Shown here: piece after piece, positions 2,348 through 47,730 of the stretch | Numbering within the stretch: position 1 is the stretch's first letter | Layout: every line of letters begins with the position of its first letter | Origin: a virus | Length of the DNA: 51,419 bases | Virus record (IMG/VR): IMGVR_UViG_3300033150_001155 | Span: 1 to 51,419 of that record | Reading direction: 5' to 3' (one strand) | Translations under genes and position numbers: made by a program | The notes under the pieces: generated by a model | What the model was told of the DNA's origin: nothing | What the model saw: the letters and a program-made list of their open reading frames with translations, nothing else | Database searches by the model: none

Positions 2348-2523
2348 TCTTTCTTCTCATCTGAGTCTTTGGCTTCAGGCGTAGCGAAGTCAGAAAAAGT
2401 GCGGGTATTACCGTGACAATTACATGTGTACGTTATTGGCGGAACGCCTGTTCCAAACCAAATGCTTTGCTGATAAATAGGTGCTCCGCACTTAGGACAA
2501 TGTCCAACTTTAATCCAATTCAT
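2344..2523 (-). CDS. Zinc-ribbon protein (59 aa)
   Basis: Contains CPKC at residues 9-12 and CNC near residue 38, a plausible zinc ribbon. GGGAGGAG precedes the ATG. It is joined by ATGA overlaps to the radical-SAM gene upstream and to the 124-residue gene downstream. Function is unknown. Confidence 0.6.
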   Translation of the reverse strand: MNWIKVGHCPKCGAPIYQQSIWFGTGVPPITYTCNCHGNTRTFSDFATPEAKDSDEKKE

Positions 2524-3395
2524 TTCTCCCTCCTAGGCCATTCCCCGACATACTCATCCCAACCTATACTTTTAAATACAGCTTTATGGTTCACATATCG
2601 GGCAAACTTACGCTGATAATCATCCTTACGATCATATGGCATTACAAATGGGTCAACACCCATAGACCGCAGTTCTTCTACACGATATAAGTCCTCTTCA
2701 TGAGTTGTGTTGTGTCCAATAAGAACATAAAACATTGCTTTATTCTTTAGGCTGTATTTCTCCAGAATCCTAACTCCAGATCGAACGGCTCTCTCAGTAG
2801 GCATTAAATCCCAAGCAAAATGTATCCGTTTCCACAATCGGACGTGGGTTAATAATTCGGCCTGTTCATCATTCAAATAACGAATATCCAAACCTTGGCT
2901 GAAATTTATGCGTGCTTTTGATTCAATCAACTGGTTCAGAATGTACTTAAAATATCCGTGATCAGTGTTAAGCGAATTATCCAAAAGCATAATTTTATCT
3001 TGACCACGCCAGAATTCATAGATATCAGCATTAGGCCGCCATCTGCCCTCCTTTTCGGGAACAACACAAAAGGGACATTTTCTATTACACCCACGGGATG
3101 TAAACCCAATAGCGTAGTCACAATTATATAAAGAATAATCTGGATAAAGATGCTCAATTTTATCTGGAAGCACCATAGTAAAACCACTGCCCGTGCCACC
3201 GATAATGGCGGTTGACGGAAGATTCGGAAACGATGTGTCATTGAAAATCTTGGAGGCATAAACCACGTCATATTGACGACTGTCTAACTCCCCGACCAAA
3301 TCAACAATGTTGTTATTTTTTTTATGATATGCAGATAGTTTCATGAGTGCTAAATTTGGTATTTTAGAATCAATGTCAATTAGTGCTATATTCAT
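2520..3395 (-). CDS. Radical SAM superfamily protein
   Basis: A 291-residue protein. Residues 1-95 resemble the short cobalamin-binding-like N-domain found in some radical SAM enzymes. The cluster motif GCNRKCPFC (Cys-x3-Cys-x2-Cys) lies near residues 103-111 and is expected to hold a [4Fe-4S] cluster that cleaves S-adenosylmethionine. A TIM-barrel-like remainder includes a conserved-looking NFSQGLDIR segment. The substrate cannot be deduced. It sits directly downstream of a second radical-SAM-like gene at 3604-4251 with one small gene between, so the two may work in one modification pathway. Confidence 0.85.
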   Translation of the reverse strand: MNIALIDIDSKIPNLALMKLSAYHKKNNNIVDLVGELDSRQYDVVYASKIFNDTSFPNLPSTAIIGGTGSGFTMVLPDKIEHLYPDYSLYNCDYAIGFTSRGCNRKCPFCVVPEKEGRWRPNADIYEFWRGQDKIMLLDNSLNTDHGYFKYILNQLIESKARINFSQGLDIRYLNDEQAELLTHVRLWKRIHFAWDLMPTERAVRSGVRILEKYSLKNKAMFYVLIGHNTTHEEDLYRVEELRSMGVDPFVMPYDRKDDYQRKFARYVNHKAVFKSIGWDEYVGEWPRREK

Positions 3396-3607
3396 CGCCT
3401 TATTGGATACTCCCCGACATACTCATAGCAAATATAATCCCCACCATCCAGGCCAACTAGGATATCGCCACACTCAGGGTCTTGGTTGTGTGTCTGGCAC
3501 AATTCCAACCAGTCATGAAAGTTGTTGATGTAGATGGTGGCGTTCCTTTTGGGAGCAGGGCGATCCATGAAATCCTCTTTGTATATGAAATCGTTGAAGT
3601 CTGTCAT
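3392..3607 (-). CDS. Hypothetical acidic protein (71 aa)
   Basis: The chosen start (MTDFNDFIYK) overlaps the stop of the upstream gene as ATGA and has AGGAG upstream. A longer frame exists but lacks a ribosome site. The product is acidic and aromatic-rich with two cysteines. It lies between two radical-SAM-type genes and overlaps the second by four bases, so it may be a partner or substrate. This is unproven. Confidence 0.55.
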   Translation of the reverse strand: MTDFNDFIYKEDFMDRPAPKRNATIYINNFHDWLELCQTHNQDPECGDILVGLDGGDYICYEYVGEYPIRR

Positions 3608-41268: not shown

Positions 41269-41706
41269 TCAAACGCTTAATCGTGCGCTTATAAACCTTT
41301 GATTTATCGCCTGGAGATTCTCTTGATACCAGGCTCGAAATTTGTCAGGCTTAACTTTCAACTTACTTGATATCTCGATTATCGTATGCCCTGCCCTGAG
41401 GAGTTTCACGACCTTATTGATATCAACATTCGGTAATTTCTCTGAATGACTCTTAATAGGCCATCGTTTCTTTGCATCCTTCAGAATTTTCTCTGTCTTT
41501 CCGGCATTCGTCGTCATGAGTTTCGTCATCTCCCCGTTCCGGGCGTTCACCCACTCTCTGAGACGCTGTTCATTGACGTTCATCTCATAGGCAACCTTGT
41601 CTATCGGCCATCCGAGACTCCCGCGCAGATAATGCCAGCGAACCCAATTCTCAAGCGATTCAATCATTGAAAAATCTTTTGCCATCTCCCTTTTTGCCTC
41701 CATCAT
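41269..41706 (-). CDS. Double helix-turn-helix protein between protease and capsid genes
   Basis: A 145-residue protein with two helix-turn-helix-like segments, WPIDKVAYEMNVNEQRLREW and AGHTIIEISSKLKVKPDKFR, similar to those of small terminases. ATGA-coupled to the protease gene. A DNA-binding protein in the head operon between protease and capsid is unusual; it might regulate late transcription or take part in packaging. No family assigned. Confidence 0.55.
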   Translation of the reverse strand: MMEAKREMAKDFSMIESLENWVRWHYLRGSLGWPIDKVAYEMNVNEQRLREWVNARNGEMTKLMTTNAGKTEKILKDAKKRWPIKSHSEKLPNVDINKVVKLLRAGHTIIEISSKLKVKPDKFRAWYQENLQAINQRFISARLSV

Positions 41707-44570
41707 ACTTTTCCTCGCAGATATCCTATAGCATCAGCGATACCATCTCGCGTCGCTTTCTCCAAGAGTTTTTTCATGTCAATCGATCTGAGCTTCCCGT
41801 CAATCGCTTCCTCAATACGTGCAGTAATATCTTTGTCTCCATCGGTTTTGTCAAGCTCTATCATATAGGCGCGCTCTCCGCTGGCCTCTTCTTCCTGCTG
41901 TCGATCCGTCTCTTCCAAGAGTTTTTCAAGTTTCGGTATTGCGGCCTTCATCCCGGCAACGGCGTCCTCAATAATCCCGCGCGTCTTTGCCGATAGTACG
42001 CGTCCTTCTTTCAGCTCAGTTATTGACTCCCGAAGTAGCGTAATCTCTTCTTTCAGATCAGCGTGGTCATCCGACTCATATTCCCGTCCCGGGCCCGGAC
42101 GCCCGACACGCCTCATCTCCCCACCACATTCTGGGCAACTTATTTCATTGCAGTGCTTGTCAGTTGTCATCTTGTATCCACACTCAATACATTCACATTC
42201 GTATTCTTTCCTCTCTCTCTTCGCTATCGCAATTTCCTTATCAATCTTGACTTCAACCTCTCCGTTTATCCATTTGACTCTATTCCATATTGATTTAGCC
42301 CCAGTTTTGTTTCCTCGGATCTCTTCAATCAATTCGCGTTGCTCAATTAATTTATCAAGGCTCTTTAATAACGCCTCGCCGATATTAATCTCATCCTCAT
42401 CGGCAATAATGGAAGCAAACTCAACAAGCTCTTTCATATGAGCCCCAGAAAAACCAGCCGTCTTTTCTGCGATATCATCAAGAAGGGATTCCTCAATTTT
42501 ACCCGCCCAGAGTTCAATCATTTTTTTCCGCTGCAATTTGCTTGGTAATCGATAATTGATTATATGATGAAATCTGCCTGGCCTATCTAAAAGCGCATCC
42601 GGTAATTTTTCTGGATAATTCGATGTCATGATCGTTAATATCCCCTTATTTTGCCTGAGCCCGTCCATTTCTGTTTTCAGAAGATCAACCACAACAGAAT
42701 CTCGATCATTATATTCTTTCAGCCATGTATCGATATCCTCAATAAACAAGACGGTCGGGGCCAAATCCCGTGCCAATGAATAACCCAACGTAATTGCTCT
42801 TAGTGCGCCAATATGCCTAAAATCTCTACTTGATATCCATATGAAGGTAGTATCCATATTGGTCATTAAAATTCGACCGGTTTTTGTTTTCCCCGTACCC
42901 GGAGGGCCGATGAAAAGTAGCCCCCGCCCTAACATTCCGTTCCTTTTTTCCTCTAATGCATCAGAAGATTTTCTCAAGGCATCTTTATATTTCTCCTCAA
43001 GAATAAGCGTATCCCATCCCTCTTTTTTCTCAGTCAAGAAATCGCCAGCTAATGCAAACTTCTCCCCACGGAGATAATTATTTTCATTCACCCATTTGTG
43101 GACTTCTTCAAAAAGTCTCTTATTCCAATCTTTGTAATCAAGAGAAGTTATAAAAGATACGGATATCCCATCCCACGTTGGCTCATATTTGACAATTAAC
43201 GGCTTGCCCTCGGCATCATAAAAATTCAATCCGCTGATTAGAAAATCATCAGATTCTTTTGAATTTAATTTAATAATCTCATATTGTGGCGGAATTTCAG
43301 CCCCGCTCCAATAAAAATTTCTTGTATCTTTTAATTTGAATTTCCCTAGAGTCTTTTTAAGCCCTGCCAAATAAGTCCCCATAAGTGGACTCGGAATGTC
43401 GAAATTATTCTTGAATACTTTTTTGACCTTACATTCCAAATATTGCTCAAACAAATCAAACTCAAACGGCTTTGGAATTGGCGATTCCGCAGATTCAATA
43501 TCAAAGAGTTTTGACAACGACTTGTTCCATCTTTCTTTTTGTTTCGGTTCTTTAAATCCTAACTTACTAAATTCTTTATGAGACTCAACCCATGCTTGCG
43601 CTTCCTCCATTGTCCATTTTTCTTTATCAAATAGATATTTCTGGATATGCGTCGGTCCGTTCGGATCACTTTTCAACTTTCCAATTACGGCTTTAATCCC
43701 CTTCTCTTTGGAAATATCAATAGTCCTGAATGATGTTTTCACAAAATCGCCTTTGTCTCTGATGGGTATATGGTGGTAATTATCGGTAGTTTCTGGTTTC
43801 GTGATCTTCTTTTCCTCTGCCGTTTTCGTCTTTTTGCCTTCGCTCTCTTTTGTTTTTTCTTCATCGTCCTCCTCGGATTTCTCAAGTGAAAGTATAATTT
43901 CGCGGTCGACAACTTCCCGTTCTTTTTTCCATTCAATCTCCAAATCTTTCTTTAATCGGCCTTCGGGAAGTAGCCCTTTCTCAATCGCCAACGTCAACGC
44001 TTCAGGACATGAAGGAATAGGAACCACAGAATATTCAAGCAACTCCCATTCCGTATATATCCGCTTTGGCATATCCTTGTCCTCGGCCTCTTTGCCTTCC
44101 TTTATCTCTGGTTCCTCCCATTTCTTCGGGATGAACCCGACAGACCAGCCCTTGAGAAGAGGCCCCGTTCCTCCAACATCCTCCGTGCAGGCTTGATAAA
44201 CCTGATCAGCCCATTCGTTCTTTGCGAATATCGTCTTTGCTATCAGCCCCTTTTCGTCCGGCTTAATCCAAGCGCAATTCCCGATCGGGAGACTTCGATA
44301 ATCATGACCATAAAGCACTTTTGGATTCTTCGTATAATTCGACAGAATTACTCCCTCTGGCAAGAGCACTTCATCATCCCTGTCTTTCGTATTCGTTGAA
44401 ATGTACGAAATCACAGCCCGCTCTTTCGCGACCGTTTCCTGTTTTTCGGCAACGTATGATTTTCGGACAAACGGGATTTCATCCTTCTTGATCTTTAACC
44501 GCCGTGCAAGAGCCCCGGCCTTATCCGGAAACACATCAACATATTTTAAATTTTCAGTCATGATATTCAT
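41703..44570 (-). CDS. Prohead protease fused to AAA+ ATPase, zinc ribbon and coiled coil
   Basis: A 955-residue protein. Residues 1-200 are an HK97-type prohead protease with GHD (His89), GWSVGF (Ser143) and ELLEYSVVPIP (Glu179) as the candidate catalytic site. Residues about 265-335 hold a segment with HHIPIRDKGDF and EKWTMEEAQAWVE seen in some phage head-protease proteins. Residues 365-730 are an AAA+ ATPase: Walker A GPPGTGKT (555-562), Walker B VLFIEDID (607-614), sensor 1 SN (650-651), Arg finger DRPGRF (662-667). Then comes a zinc ribbon CIEC/CPEC (794-797, 812-815) and a coiled-coil C-terminus. The protease normally comprises about 200-250 residues alone, so this is a striking fusion. 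It may drive scaffold or delta-domain removal, or prohead maturation, with ATP. Confidence 0.9.
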   Translation of the reverse strand: MNIMTENLKYVDVFPDKAGALARRLKIKKDEIPFVRKSYVAEKQETVAKERAVISYISTNTKDRDDEVLLPEGVILSNYTKNPKVLYGHDYRSLPIGNCAWIKPDEKGLIAKTIFAKNEWADQVYQACTEDVGGTGPLLKGWSVGFIPKKWEEPEIKEGKEAEDKDMPKRIYTEWELLEYSVVPIPSCPEALTLAIEKGLLPEGRLKKDLEIEWKKEREVVDREIILSLEKSEEDDEEKTKESEGKKTKTAEEKKITKPETTDNYHHIPIRDKGDFVKTSFRTIDISKEKGIKAVIGKLKSDPNGPTHIQKYLFDKEKWTMEEAQAWVESHKEFSKLGFKEPKQKERWNKSLSKLFDIESAESPIPKPFEFDLFEQYLECKVKKVFKNNFDIPSPLMGTYLAGLKKTLGKFKLKDTRNFYWSGAEIPPQYEIIKLNSKESDDFLISGLNFYDAEGKPLIVKYEPTWDGISVSFITSLDYKDWNKRLFEEVHKWVNENNYLRGEKFALAGDFLTEKKEGWDTLILEEKYKDALRKSSDALEEKRNGMLGRGLLFIGPPGTGKTKTGRILMTNMDTTFIWISSRDFRHIGALRAITLGYSLARDLAPTVLFIEDIDTWLKEYNDRDSVVVDLLKTEMDGLRQNKGILTIMTSNYPEKLPDALLDRPGRFHHIINYRLPSKLQRKKMIELWAGKIEESLLDDIAEKTAGFSGAHMKELVEFASIIADEDEINIGEALLKSLDKLIEQRELIEEIRGNKTGAKSIWNRVKWINGEVEVKIDKEIAIAKRERKEYECECIECGYKMTTDKHCNEISCPECGGEMRRVGRPGPGREYESDDHADLKEEITLLRESITELKEGRVLSAKTRGIIEDAVAGMKAAIPKLEKLLEETDRQQEEEASGERAYMIELDKTDGDKDITARIEEAIDGKLRSIDMKKLLEKATRDGIADAIGYLRGKV

Positions 44571-44582
44571 CTTATTCCTCCG

Positions 44583-46307
44583 TTATTCCTCTGTTATCGG
44601 TAATATATGACATCGACAATTACTTGAAATTACTCCATTGCTGATGTATAATGAAGATTGCGTATGTAGATCGTAAACATAACCATGAAAAGAATCAATC
44701 TTGATATCGACAATCTTCTTCGTCTTTATGAAAGCGGGGAGTCCGAGAAGGCACTCGCCGAAAGGTTTAACATTGCTCGCGGTTCTATTCGTCTTCGCTT
44801 GCTCGAGAATGGGGTCAAACCCAGAAATAGAAGCGAGGCTATGTTCACCAGAATGAGCAAGACGTCGAAGGAAGAACGGATGCGGTTGACGGGAGCCGCC
44901 CACGCTGCTGTCCGCGGCAAACGCCAAAGCCTCGAATATCGCTGTAAGATTGCTAAAACGAGAGAGATCAAACAAATTGGTATCGGTCGCGGAGAAATTA
45001 TGCTCGCGGAGAAATTGAGTAAATGCGGTTTTTCCTGTATCCAACAAAAAGCCATCGGCCCCTATAATATCGATGTAGCCATCACAAAACCGCCCATCGC
45101 CGTGGAGCTGTTCGGCGGAAACTGGCACGCGTTTGGCAACCATGCCAGGTGCTTTCGCAAACGAACTGATTATATCCTCAATTCTGGCTGGGCCGTTATT
45201 ATTATTTGGGTTACCAGGAATTATCCCCTTGAGCGAGGAGCAATAGAATATATCGTCTCCTTTGCGGAGAAGTTGAGCCGAGGCGAAACCGTTGGGAGTA
45301 AGGAGCATATGATTCGGGGTGACGGTAAGAGGACTACCCTCGGAAAAAGAAAGCTCAATAATCTTCCCCCTATAGAAGGCCCTCAGCCCCGCGATCGTAT
45401 TACCGGCCGTTTCACATCTCGTCCCTGGCAATAAACATCTAGCATGTAAAGGTGGGGATTCTATATCTGTATAATTAACTTTCAGGCTCAATTCTTTTCC
45501 CTCGCGCTCAACCGTAAACTCATCCCCCATAGAAAAGAACTTTTCCTCAATTCCTATTGTCTTGCCATCTAAATCTTCGCAAAAAGGACAGGTACGAGAA
45601 TCCCAAAACGTAGCCCAGGTGAGATGTGTCACTACTCCACTTTGCCTATAGGCTGCCAGAGCCCCCTGATTTGAAGCTCTCAGCGTCTCTGTTCTTGCAA
45701 TCATCTCAGACCGTGCTTTGTTCCAATTATCATATGTCATATTGACACGCTTTGTAAGCTCTGGGATCCCCTCCCCGGCCTCAATCCCGGCCTTTAGTTG
45801 CCGGCGTAGCTTTTCAATATTAACGCCCTCCATTGACTCTGACAAATGGAGCGGATATGTATCAAGCCATTTCTGGACATGAGGATTCCCCATATCAAAC
45901 GCTATATCAAGCTCTGCAAACTCAATAGCTCCATCTGCATTTTTCTCCATTATCTCAGCCATCAATGTCTTAAACAATGCATTGAATTCATCAACAAACT
46001 TCTTTTTCGGATATAACAGCTCATCGGTTTTATCTTTCGTTCGCCATGCCTTTTTTGTCTTTTTTATATTCGCTATGATGATTCGCCGTTCCTTCTCCCA
46101 TACCTTGATGATGCTTCGGCGCATCCGACGTTCAAACGGAAGATTCAATCGCTCAAGCAAAGCAAATATCGCCGGGTTCCTTTTCCGTGAAACCTCGGTA
46201 ATAACCGCATCCAACAGCGCATCTTTCAAATGTCGTTCAACATGTTCATGACAACATTCGCAGAGTGTATCATAAGCTATCTGCTCGGCAATGATCTGTT
46301 TATCCAT
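44583..46307 (-). CDS. MuF/SPP1 gp7-like minor head protein interrupted by an intein
   Basis: A 574-residue precursor. The N-extein (residues 1-290) is a head morphogenesis protein: ARTETLRASNQGAL, WDSRTCPFCEDLDGK and the MuF-domain end SPPLHAR. The intein covers residues 291-563. The C-extein is only 11 residues (CRCHILPITEE). Splicing restores PPLHAR-CRCHILP, the conserved PPLHxxCRC motif. The mature protein would be 301 residues. It overlaps the portal gene by eight bases, as is usual for MuF genes. Confidence 0.93.
   Translation of the reverse strand: MDKQIIAEQIAYDTLCECCHEHVERHLKDALLDAVITEVSRKRNPAIFALLERLNLPFERRMRRSIIKVWEKERRIIIANIKKTKKAWRTKDKTDELLYPKKKFVDEFNALFKTLMAEIMEKNADGAIEFAELDIAFDMGNPHVQKWLDTYPLHLSESMEGVNIEKLRRQLKAGIEAGEGIPELTKRVNMTYDNWNKARSEMIARTETLRASNQGALAAYRQSGVVTHLTWATFWDSRTCPFCEDLDGKTIGIEEKFFSMGDEFTVEREGKELSLKVNYTDIESPPLHARCLLPGTRCETAGNTIAGLRAFYRGKIIELSFSEGSPLTVTPNHMLLTPNGFASAQLLRKGDDIFYCSSLKGIIPGNPNNNNGPARIEDIISSFAKAPGMVAKRVPVSAEQLHGDGRFCDGYIDIIGADGFLLDTGKTAFTQFLREHNFSATDTNLFDLSRFSNLTAIFEALAFAADSSVGGSRQPHPFFLRRLAHSGEHSLASISGFDPILEQAKTNRTASNVKPFGECLLGLPAFIKTKKIVDIKIDSFHGYVYDLHTQSSLYISNGVISSNCRCHILPITEE
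44624..44652 (+). promoter_or_regulatory. Sigma70 promoter for the antisense endonuclease, inside the intein
   Basis: TTGAAA (44624-44629), exactly 17 bases, then a perfect TATAAT (44647-44652). The predicted start lies near 44659 and the endonuclease ATG is at 44685, giving a 5' leader of about 25 bases without a clear Shine-Dalgarno site. The promoter DNA also encodes the block F-G residues SSLYISNGVISS of the intein. It stands alone on the plus strand among minus-strand late genes. Confidence 0.75.
44685..45434 (+). CDS. Vsr-like homing endonuclease, antisense and nested in the MuF intein
   Basis: A 249-residue protein. An N-terminal helix-turn-helix (GESEKALAERFNIARGSIRL) is followed by a Vsr/PD-(D/E)XK-type nuclease domain: IGRGEIMLAEKL, YNIDVAITKPPIAVELFGG, NWHAF and SGWAVIIIWVT, with Asp, Glu and His expected at the metal site. 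This fits the Vsr-like homing endonuclease family known beside split inteins. The gene lies wholly within the intein on the opposite strand, and its TAA stop is the complement of intein codon 2. It contains no TTA, CTA or TCA codon (0 of 19 Leu, 0 of 14 Ser), which keeps the intein frame open. An upstream in-frame stop at 44667 fixes the ATG. Confidence 0.88.
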   Translation: MKRINLDIDNLLRLYESGESEKALAERFNIARGSIRLRLLENGVKPRNRSEAMFTRMSKTSKEERMRLTGAAHAAVRGKRQSLEYRCKIAKTREIKQIGIGRGEIMLAEKLSKCGFSCIQQKAIGPYNIDVAITKPPIAVELFGGNWHAFGNHARCFRKRTDYILNSGWAVIIIWVTRNYPLERGAIEYIVSFAEKLSRGETVGSKEHMIRGDGKRTTLGKRKLNNLPPIEGPQPRDRITGRFTSRPWQ

Positions 46308-47730
46308 TTATCATTTCCCTCAATGCTTGTTTAGCTAGCAGTGCGATCTGACGTGCCTCCTCTTCGGTCGGTTTTATCGGAGCAACCGAACCTATCGGAG
46401 CCATCGTCATAGGAAGTATCGGCACTGCCCCCCATTCGCTCTCGTCGCGTCCTTCAATCTTGCGCTCCTCATTTATTGATGAAAATCCGGTCTTGAGATT
46501 AGTCTCTTTTTCCTTGAGCTTAAATTCTTTGTCCTCCGGGACGGGGGAATCAAAAGCCACAAACAGCCGTTTCTTCCCGCTTGAGAATCGGGAGATAATT
46601 TTCTCATTCACCTTTTCTTGTAATCGTTGGAGCATCGGGTCTATACCGTATTTTGCAAACGTGAATTGTGCTCCCTCGACATTTGCCCTATTTGCCGTCG
46701 GGTCGAAAAGCGCAGCCGGGACGCCATATGCAGCGCATATCTCCTCTCGGTTCAACACTCGCCCTTTCGTATAGCTGAGCTCTTCAGGCGTCATCGTATC
46801 TCTAATATATTCCATCTCTCTTGTAGTGAGCATTGTCCGTCCGGCCTTCTTTGCCCCGGCGAATTTATCGGCAAATTGCTGTTCAAGACGGTCAAAGTCC
46901 TGCCGACTGATATTTCCCTTCGGCACGATAAGCCCCCCGGGACGAGCCCGGTTTACGAAAAGCGCACTTTCAAACTCATTCATCTGCCGTGCGATAAATA
47001 CGGCATACGCTATCCCACGGGTTGTCGCATAACCGGAGAAAGGATTCTGAGGATTCGGATATTCGAAAAATACAATCTCCTCCGGGCTGAACTTTACCTC
47101 TACGCTTCCCCGCTTGTATCGATAACCGATAATCGCCTCATCAAGCGTCCTTCCGAATATCGGATTCATGAACTGTGCCGGAATGACCCATATCTCCTGT
47201 GGAACACCAAGAGAATTTAGTGGCGTGTACCAATACGCCTCGCCAGTAAGGTCAAGAAACATTGAGGTTGATTCCCAGAGATCGCGTCGCGTTGCGAAAG
47301 GATTGACTTTCGTCACAAGGTCAAGAAACACATGCTCGGTTATCTCCTCAATATCCTCGGCCTTACAAACGATTCTCTCAAGCCCGGCGTTCGCCCGGAT
47401 CAGCGCAAGGGTCTCCCGGTCAACACGCTTCGTCTTTGTCTTTACGGGTGCCGATCGCTCCTCTTTAGCGACATACATCCGCATCTTTACGTTTGCGACA
47501 GCCTCCGCCTTCCGCTTCACGCAGGTATAAACCCAACCTTCAAACGAATCTGCGAACTGACTTTTTGTCCTCGGCCTGCTATCCCCGAGGAGTCCTTCGC
47601 CCCAAAACTCGGCGTCAATAAATGCCGTATCATCTCCGATACTCGGCCTCTGCCCAGTTGTTGAGAAAGCATCCTCAAGGCCTCGCCTATAAAGCCCCTT
47701 CTGTCGGCCTATCCACTCAAATATATTCAT
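46300..47730 (-). CDS. HK97-type portal protein
   Basis: A 476-residue portal protein. FADSFEGWVYTCVKRKAEAVANV opens the fold, GEAYWYTPLNSLGVP and LNREEICAAYGVPAALFDP are typical portal motifs, and a charged C-terminus follows. It forms the dodecameric ring for DNA entry and docks the terminase. Order large terminase, portal, MuF is standard. Overlaps the MuF start by eight bases. Confidence 0.9.
   Translation of the reverse strand: MNIFEWIGRQKGLYRRGLEDAFSTTGQRPSIGDDTAFIDAEFWGEGLLGDSRPRTKSQFADSFEGWVYTCVKRKAEAVANVKMRMYVAKEERSAPVKTKTKRVDRETLALIRANAGLERIVCKAEDIEEITEHVFLDLVTKVNPFATRRDLWESTSMFLDLTGEAYWYTPLNSLGVPQEIWVIPAQFMNPIFGRTLDEAIIGYRYKRGSVEVKFSPEEIVFFEYPNPQNPFSGYATTRGIAYAVFIARQMNEFESALFVNRARPGGLIVPKGNISRQDFDRLEQQFADKFAGAKKAGRTMLTTREMEYIRDTMTPEELSYTKGRVLNREEICAAYGVPAALFDPTANRANVEGAQFTFAKYGIDPMLQRLQEKVNEKIISRFSSGKKRLFVAFDSPVPEDKEFKLKEKETNLKTGFSSINEERKIEGRDESEWGAVPILPMTMAPIGSVAPIKPTEEEARQIALLAKQALREMING

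Follow-up and report, generated by a model that had tools for sequence, protein, structure and literature searches.

The viral stretch of 51,419 nucleotides analysed here (the window) very probably carries a mobile intein whose homing endonuclease, of the EDxHD/Vsr-like type, is the product of the intein's own antisense strand, with protein splicing and DNA cleavage predicted from the sequence. Both reading frames, their register, their conservation throughout a family of homologous loci, the existence of empty sites and the horizontal movement of the element are established by sequence comparison. It is also likely, if with a little less confidence, that these loci represent a distinct class of mobile inteins, in which a splicing protein and a homing endonuclease overlap fully and codon against codon, have putative expression signals within the catalytic blocks, and are kept as a unit in the phages of several bacterial phyla.

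The intein interrupts a gene for a MuF protein, and the features of the locus are collected in Table 1. On the minus strand, positions 46307-44583 form a single continuous frame of 574 codons, in which the N-extein ends in SPPLHAR and the C-extein reads CRCHILPITEE; the MuF protein and its N-extein match the Pfam family Phage_Mu_F with E values from 1.7e-16 to 1.9e-16. The codon of Cys1 is the complement of 45435-45437 and that of the C-terminal Asn273 the complement of 44619-44621, and these residues, together with the +1 Cys, correspond to the nucleophile arrangement of class 1 inteins, whose blocks B (TxxH, here TPNH) and F (HGYVYDL) are both present as well. The penultimate residue is Ser (SSN/C) and not the usual His; this His is missing from some known inteins too, so it is not strictly defining. 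In the window, the match to the Pfam domain Intein_splicing (E 4.9e-6) lies below the curated cut-off, as does one of the nuclease matches given below (REase_MTES_1575), and both are backed by evidence from the family and from the fold: Intein_splicing is matched by 38 of 39 related inteins, the structural model of the intein matches solved inteins, and profile comparison retrieves inteins of the PDB with E values down to 2e-11 (HINT fold). In the related inteins, the only Pfam domains were of the Intein_splicing or Hint type, i.e., no endonuclease was found in frame. A split intein, a fractured gene and a frameshift were all rejected because the frame is one and continuous, and a group I intron was rejected since, in an Rfam search of positions 43500-46500, no family reached its gathering score. 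Downstream of the MuF gene, the minus strand (41703-44570) encodes a 955-residue protein that combines a Peptidase_S78 prohead protease with an AAA+ ATPase (E 2.9e-21), an unusual fusion within a head gene cluster.

Table 1. Positions, in window coordinates, of the intein-bearing MuF gene, of the facing nuclease gene and of their main elements.
Feature	Position	Strand	Basis or remark
MuF N-extein, 290 aa, phage portal-associated head protein	45438..46307	-	Phage_Mu_F match
Intein, 273 aa, Cys1 to Asn273, +1 Cys	44619..45437	-	Intein_splicing, PDB intein profile matches, fold
MuF C-extein CRCHILPITEE and stop codon	44583..44618	-	Reading frame
Intein block B, TPNH	45309..45320	-	Complement codes for nuclease MIRG
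Intein HGDG motif	45093..45104	-	Opposite the nuclease catalytic IAVE (45096-45107, +)
Intein spacer, residues 128-230	44748..45056	-	Predicted disordered; conserved little beyond the nuclease-imposed level
Intein block F, HGYVYDLH	44664..44687	-	Its His codon (CAT) pairs with the nuclease start ATG
Intein block G, ISNGVISSN	44619..44645	-	Shares bases with the promoter-like site of the nuclease gene
Antisense endonuclease gene, 249 aa	44685..45434	+	ORF, Pfam, model fold, profile
N-terminal helix-turn-helix DNA-binding domain	44694..44819	+	HTH_7; resolvase/GcrA/Mos1 HTH fold
Vsr-like (EDxHD/PD-(D/E)XK superfamily) catalytic domain	44982..45317	+	Conserved E104, D130, E141, R160
Sigma-70-like promoter candidate for the nuclease, TTGAAA-17-TATAAT, 11/12	44624..44652	+	Within intein blocks F/G

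The nuclease frame lies within the intein, and its stop codon TAA (45432-45434) is the complement of intein codon 2 (TTA). Codons face codons, with position 1 opposite position 3, 2 opposite 2 and 3 opposite 1, and an intein residue number equals 252 minus the nuclease number. The plus-strand protein matches HTH_7 (3.7e-5) and, below the curated cut-off, REase_MTES_1575 (1.6e-6), a family matched by 36 of 44 related nucleases. AlphaFold (AF2) models were built from family alignments for both proteins, and the nuclease model (pLDDT 88) resembles Vsr (1cw0; Z 11.7, rmsd 2.4 A over 113 residues), 3hrl (Z 11.1) and the catalytic domain of I-Bth0305I (3r3p; Z 10.2, rmsd 3.1 over 95), the last enzyme being also the closest PDB relative by profile (6e-6). 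Regarding the putative catalytic residues, Y127 and N128 are invariant, and D130 and E141 invariant or nearly so, among 44-48 aligned members; E104 is nearly invariant, and the histidine of the EDxHD motif, H148, is found in a subset of members only. A separate DNA-binding module is present at the N-terminus, where model residues 1-45 match the HTH domains of resolvase, GcrA and Mos1, and relatives carry one to three HTH repeats. In the loci L032, L002, L009-L012 and others, where two or three N-terminal repeats occur, the intein spacer is longer by an equal number of codons, and the gain of an HTH on one strand therefore entails a longer disordered spacer on the other. The first-pass annotation of this locus had placed the intein and the nuclease correctly to the base (Cys1, Asn273, +1 Cys, and a stop opposite codon 2), and its assignment of an HTH plus a Vsr-like nuclease to the plus strand agrees with the Pfam matches, the fold (Vsr, Z 11.7) and the matches within the family.

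Homologous loci are numerous. When either protein was used as a tblastn query, nearly identical sets of phage records were retrieved on opposite strands (125 and 131 records), coming from Salmonella, Escherichia, Klebsiella, Pseudomonas, Vibrio, Gordonia, Haemophilus, Aggregatibacter and others, and in the first 29 homologous loci both frames were open and in identical register in every case (29/29). Once enlarged with loci from IMG/VR and GTDB, the set comprised 176 loci with a related nuclease, and the facing frame was free of stops in 174 of them, with the other two minus frames mostly holding from several to dozens of stops per locus. Of the two loci outside the 174, one is a free-standing nuclease gene and the other a Thermoleophilia copy in which no intein could be recognised. 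Among the 174, the N block of the intein was recognised in 172 and the C block in 165. At 80% identity the collection reduces to 112 non-redundant inteins, ranging from Proteobacteria to Actinobacteria, of which all have the +1 Cys and 107 have Cys1, while the penultimate residue is His in 65 and Ser in 35. A scan that started from the intein found an antisense nuclease in 80 of the 80 top loci, and in 78 of 79 the open frame of the nuclease spanned 70% or more of the length of the intein; its query, 29 aa of block F/G, derived from nuclease-bearing members, which makes these figures blind to distant nuclease-free MuF inteins. Phage_Mu_F was matched by 75 of the 104 N-exteins scanned, and four more matched VG15 and Phage_min_cap2, other structural families of phages.

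Several members of the family have peculiarities of their own. In L119 (of the same contig type as L120), one MuF gene contains two inteins of 361 and 275 aa (1418-2242 and 2384-3466), each with its own antisense nuclease, and an apparent intein of 683 residues was for this reason rejected. Phages Sejanus (L024) and KMB36 (L025) have inteins of the family at a second MuF site; the usual HPNC site is unoccupied in KMB36 and has the sequence HFGC, which may make it resistant. In Rhodococcus phage REQ3 (L027) the intein begins with Ala and not with Cys and the antisense nuclease has no HTH, which may denote a decaying copy. In the intein-bearing GenBank records examined, including those of Salmonella and E. 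coli phages, the nuclease is not annotated; a small opposite-strand ORF annotated in Salmonella phage vB_StyS-sam lies in a different frame and was discarded as a candidate.

The question of whether two such frames could face each other by chance was approached through codon usage. With the codon usage of the window's own MuF gene, the facing frame would stay open with a probability of about 10^-6.4 if the intein protein is taken as fixed, and of about 10^-4.6 if the nuclease protein is; for a single window such values are suggestive by themselves, and the relatives settle the question of more than chance. In the 95 non-redundant loci with enough extein for a measurement of codon usage, the summed log10 P, with the sequences treated as independent, reached -367 given the intein and -280 in the reverse direction. 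The codons TTA, CTA and TCA, each of which places a stop on the opposite strand, are absent from both frames of these loci, against expectations of 507 occurrences for the nuclease and 668 for the intein that faces it.

Moreover, conservation of the protein on each strand exceeds what the other strand forces. The null for this comparison was obtained by permuting synonymous codons within each sequence, treated as independent of the others, with the protein of the other strand kept fixed. The mean column identity of the intein was 0.249 against a null of 0.180 +/- 0.0006 (nuclease protein fixed), and that of the nuclease 0.303 against 0.169 +/- 0.0006 (intein protein fixed). On the intein strand the excess is found in blocks A and B (nuclease 201-249, 0.410 vs 0.190) and around HGDG, opposite VAVE (nuclease 126-165, 0.322 vs 0.225), and it is slight across nuclease 1-125. 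The minus-strand TPNH of block B is conserved well past the level imposed by the plus-strand protein, and the HGDG motif is conserved in both frames, its H, G and D at about 90% in a 42-member alignment, opposite the catalytic VAVE. In 16 close pairs, the freer codon position changes strand along the element: at nuclease residues 1-125 third positions are the most variable (0.33-0.44 per site), and at residues 201-249 first positions (0.192) vary more than third positions (0.132).

The structural models suggest how the two proteins share the DNA. The nuclease is predicted to be ordered up to about residue 219, and its disordered tail (about 220-249) lies opposite intein block A; the intein is predicted to be ordered at 1-67, 82-127 and 233-273, and its disordered part (128-230) lies opposite the HTH and helical part of the nuclease. 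Between them, about 85 codons (nuclease 126-211, intein 41-126) appear to encode ordered structure on either strand, with the exception of a short loop of the intein (70-77). Judged from models and conservation together, the nuclease dominates over its HTH and helical half, and the intein dominates opposite the nuclease tail. The earlier claim that the 819-base segment codes for both parts of a mobile element on opposite strands gains support from the open frames and the conservation on two strands. Homologues with frequent stops, or with no protein-level signal on one strand, had been named as evidence that would overturn it, and neither strand carries stops while both are conserved as proteins; the search for MuF inteins with the same opposite-strand ORF, proposed at the same time, revealed a widespread family, with 165 loci having both intein ends (112 non-redundant). 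The accompanying idea that the middle of the intein is the antisense of its own endonuclease holds for residues 41-126, ordered and conserved in both frames, and less so for residues 128-230, which resemble an unconserved spacer.

In addition to the two proteins, the segment appears to accommodate signals for the expression of the nuclease. The start codon of the nuclease lies opposite the His codon CAT of block F (GHVYNL), and most of the 112 members have it at this same place (offset -1 with ATG in 76 and with GTG in 8, offset -3 with ATG in 11). The Asn/Asp-Leu codons of block F give, on the complementary strand, the Shine-Dalgarno sequence GGAGGT, and where the Leu is lost, an SD-like sequence occurs at neighbouring Ser codons (L041, L132, L135, L141, L167). 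Three signals are more frequent than under synonymous recoding by each gene's own codon usage: SD runs of 5 or more (51% vs 16%), -10 elements with 5/6 matches or better (80% vs 37%) and complete promoter-like sites scoring 9/12 or higher (38% vs 14%). Codon choice is correspondingly skewed, with block-F Leu being CTC in 59 of 85 (23% in exteins), block-F His CAT in 72 of 80 (41%), and block-G Ile ATA in 27 of 48 (19%). In the window, the promoter-like site has a P of about 0.01 among synonymous codings of the intein, and upstream of the nuclease gene no clear Shine-Dalgarno sequence was found, only a weak one. A start codon, a ribosome-binding site and promoter-like elements are found among the synonymous codon choices of blocks F and G, where they would serve the nuclease.

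Evidence for mobility comes from empty sites and from transfer. In T102, Jersey, K1ind2 and AV104 the MuF gene is free of the intein and reads PPAHPN/CRS, and in Ijeoma, ZCSE7, STM-ZS and Snoke the intein lies exactly at this junction of the empty alleles, so that exact in-frame insertion is established for relatives of the window's own species; K1ind2 has already been noted as an intein-free relative of phage Snoke (PMC6776784). Between a Salmonella Jerseyvirus and an E. coli Kagunavirus, the inteins are 95.5% identical within N-exteins and C-exteins that are 68% and 80% identical, which points to recent horizontal movement of the element alone. A free-standing form of the nuclease exists in Acinetobacter obolenskviruses, convergent with an uninterrupted MuF gene, and has 10 stops in the facing frame; such a form without an open facing frame indicates that the nuclease is a gene in its own right, and it is possibly an ancestor or a remnant of the composite element. 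The free-standing copies are found directly 3' of MuF, at 455-1348 in L026 (IME285) and at 3830-4723 in L261 (BUCT629).

Other explanations deserve consideration. The plus-strand ORF could be an artefact: conservation of the intein codons, together with codon bias, would suffice to keep the facing frame open, and the resemblance to a nuclease would be incidental. In GC-rich genes, the antisense frame in codon register is indeed the one that most easily stays open, and many members have a GC content of 55-70%, but AT-rich members (37-45% GC) are open too, the plus-strand conservation of 0.303 stands against the 0.169 allowed by the intein protein, the predicted nuclease fold is confidently Vsr-like, and a free-standing relative occurs without any intein, all of which leaves this explanation strongly disfavoured and hardly credible. 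Codon bias or chance was rejected on account of the stop-free facing frames, the absence of TTA, CTA and TCA, and the conservation above the nulls. It is also improbable that the middle of the intein is functionless, i.e., that a mini-intein took up an antisense nuclease gene and just stays stop-free: the predicted disorder of residues 128-230, and their conservation little above the level imposed by the nuclease, fit this account, but residues 41-126 (opposite nuclease 126-211) are for the most part ordered and exceed the null in conservation, in particular at HGDG/VAVE. It therefore suits about 100 codons and not the whole overlap, and is a refinement of the antisense-endonuclease reading more than a rival to it.

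Both proteins may instead be real and the nuclease serve a purpose other than homing, either by cutting the MuF gene of competitors (exclusion) or by regulating MuF through antisense transcription. Phage homing endonucleases often serve phage competition, antisense transcription across a late structural gene could repress that gene, and the free-standing form adjoins MuF without an intein; against this, empty alleles with exact insertion and an intein that has passed between phages agree with homing, exclusion involves the same cut as homing and is compatible with it, and a pure antisense RNA is disfavoured by the family-wide conservation of a protein and not of transcription alone. We give this alternative a low probability. 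Finally, the nuclease of the window itself could have lost its activity, with the intein now fixed, as the lack of a good Shine-Dalgarno site in the window would suggest. This is unlikely as well, given an ORF of full length, intact catalytic D130 and E141, and the 11/12 promoter-like site upstream.

The antisense-endonuclease reading can be outlined as follows. Translation of the minus strand within MuF would yield the 273-residue intein, which, as its intact blocks suggest, would excise itself and join PPLHAR to CRC. The plus strand would yield a free enzyme of 249 residues that combines an HTH with a Vsr-like catalytic domain and has expression signals of its own in the synonymous codon choices of blocks F and G. 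At the insertion site, this nuclease most likely cleaves MuF alleles that lack the intein, and repair templated by the intein-bearing copy would insert both coding strands together. The load would be shared, in that the intein provides a disordered spacer opposite the HTH and helical part and the nuclease a disordered tail opposite block A, with the approximately 85 codons in between serving two ordered domains. Splicing, plus-strand expression and cleavage of the empty site are the steps that we infer.

These findings bear on the question of how homing endonucleases escape loss from inteins. The two functions are separate as proteins and joined as DNA, and deleting either breaks the gene of the other, which, if true, is one way to protect a homing endonuclease from being deleted out of its intein. 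They also provide a natural and replicated instance of long codon-facing sense/antisense coding and, if true, a living case of two in-register folded proteins; with more than 100 divergent pairs, the feasibility of such coding and the sharing of constraint by two folds become directly testable, a matter of relevance for the design of overlapping genes and for the Rodin-Ohno debate. Furthermore, the family constitutes a new set of Vsr-like endonucleases with a predictable target, the MuF insertion site, which they are expected to cleave.

Mobile inteins and Vsr-like (EDxHD) homing endonucleases are already known, and it is the antisense architecture of intein and nuclease that is apparently new. 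The first-pass annotation knew of no earlier case, and no description of an antisense endonuclease in an intein was found in the openly licensed literature, an absence that is not proof; to our knowledge, every described HEN-bearing intein has its endonuclease in frame. A close parallel is offered by the fractured genes with split inteins and Vsr-like endonucleases reportedly described by Dassa et al. in 2009 (cited in PMC10448857), which similarly pair an intein with a Vsr-like nuclease gene, whereas the present intein is in one piece, as is its host gene, and both genes occupy the same base pairs. In canonical homing inteins (PI-SceI, VMA and RecA inteins), the endonuclease is an in-frame domain of the same polypeptide, at one conserved site (PMC8966425, PMC6801210). 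The present element shares with them a HINT domain placed precisely in a conserved site of a host gene, an associated endonuclease and empty alleles, and departs from them in that the nuclease is a separate protein, encoded on the complementary strand and extending across blocks A, B and F as well. A large intein of the same family was reported in the capsid protein of phage Snoke (PMC6776784), and the intein passages of that paper and the annotation of the record mention no opposite-strand gene. The nuclease resembles I-Bth0305I, an EDxHD/Vsr-like homing endonuclease (cited in PMC3943268), in its catalytic domain, by profile (6e-6) and by fold (Z 10.2), and in a DNA-binding region of several parts; the solved I-Bth0305I entry is named 'mobile intron protein', whereas the present gene lies antisense to an intein and has resolvase-like HTH modules. 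Nuclear group I introns of Porphyra also carry homing endonuclease genes on the strand complementary to the splicing element (PMC2585584), but their host is an rRNA intron without a coding frame, so there is no dual protein coding, while here both strands code for proteins. Codon-to-codon sense/antisense coding of two folded proteins is proposed in the Rodin-Ohno model of the aminoacyl-tRNA synthetases (PMC4082485), where the pairing is a reconstructed ancient state; the pairing described here is present in living phages.
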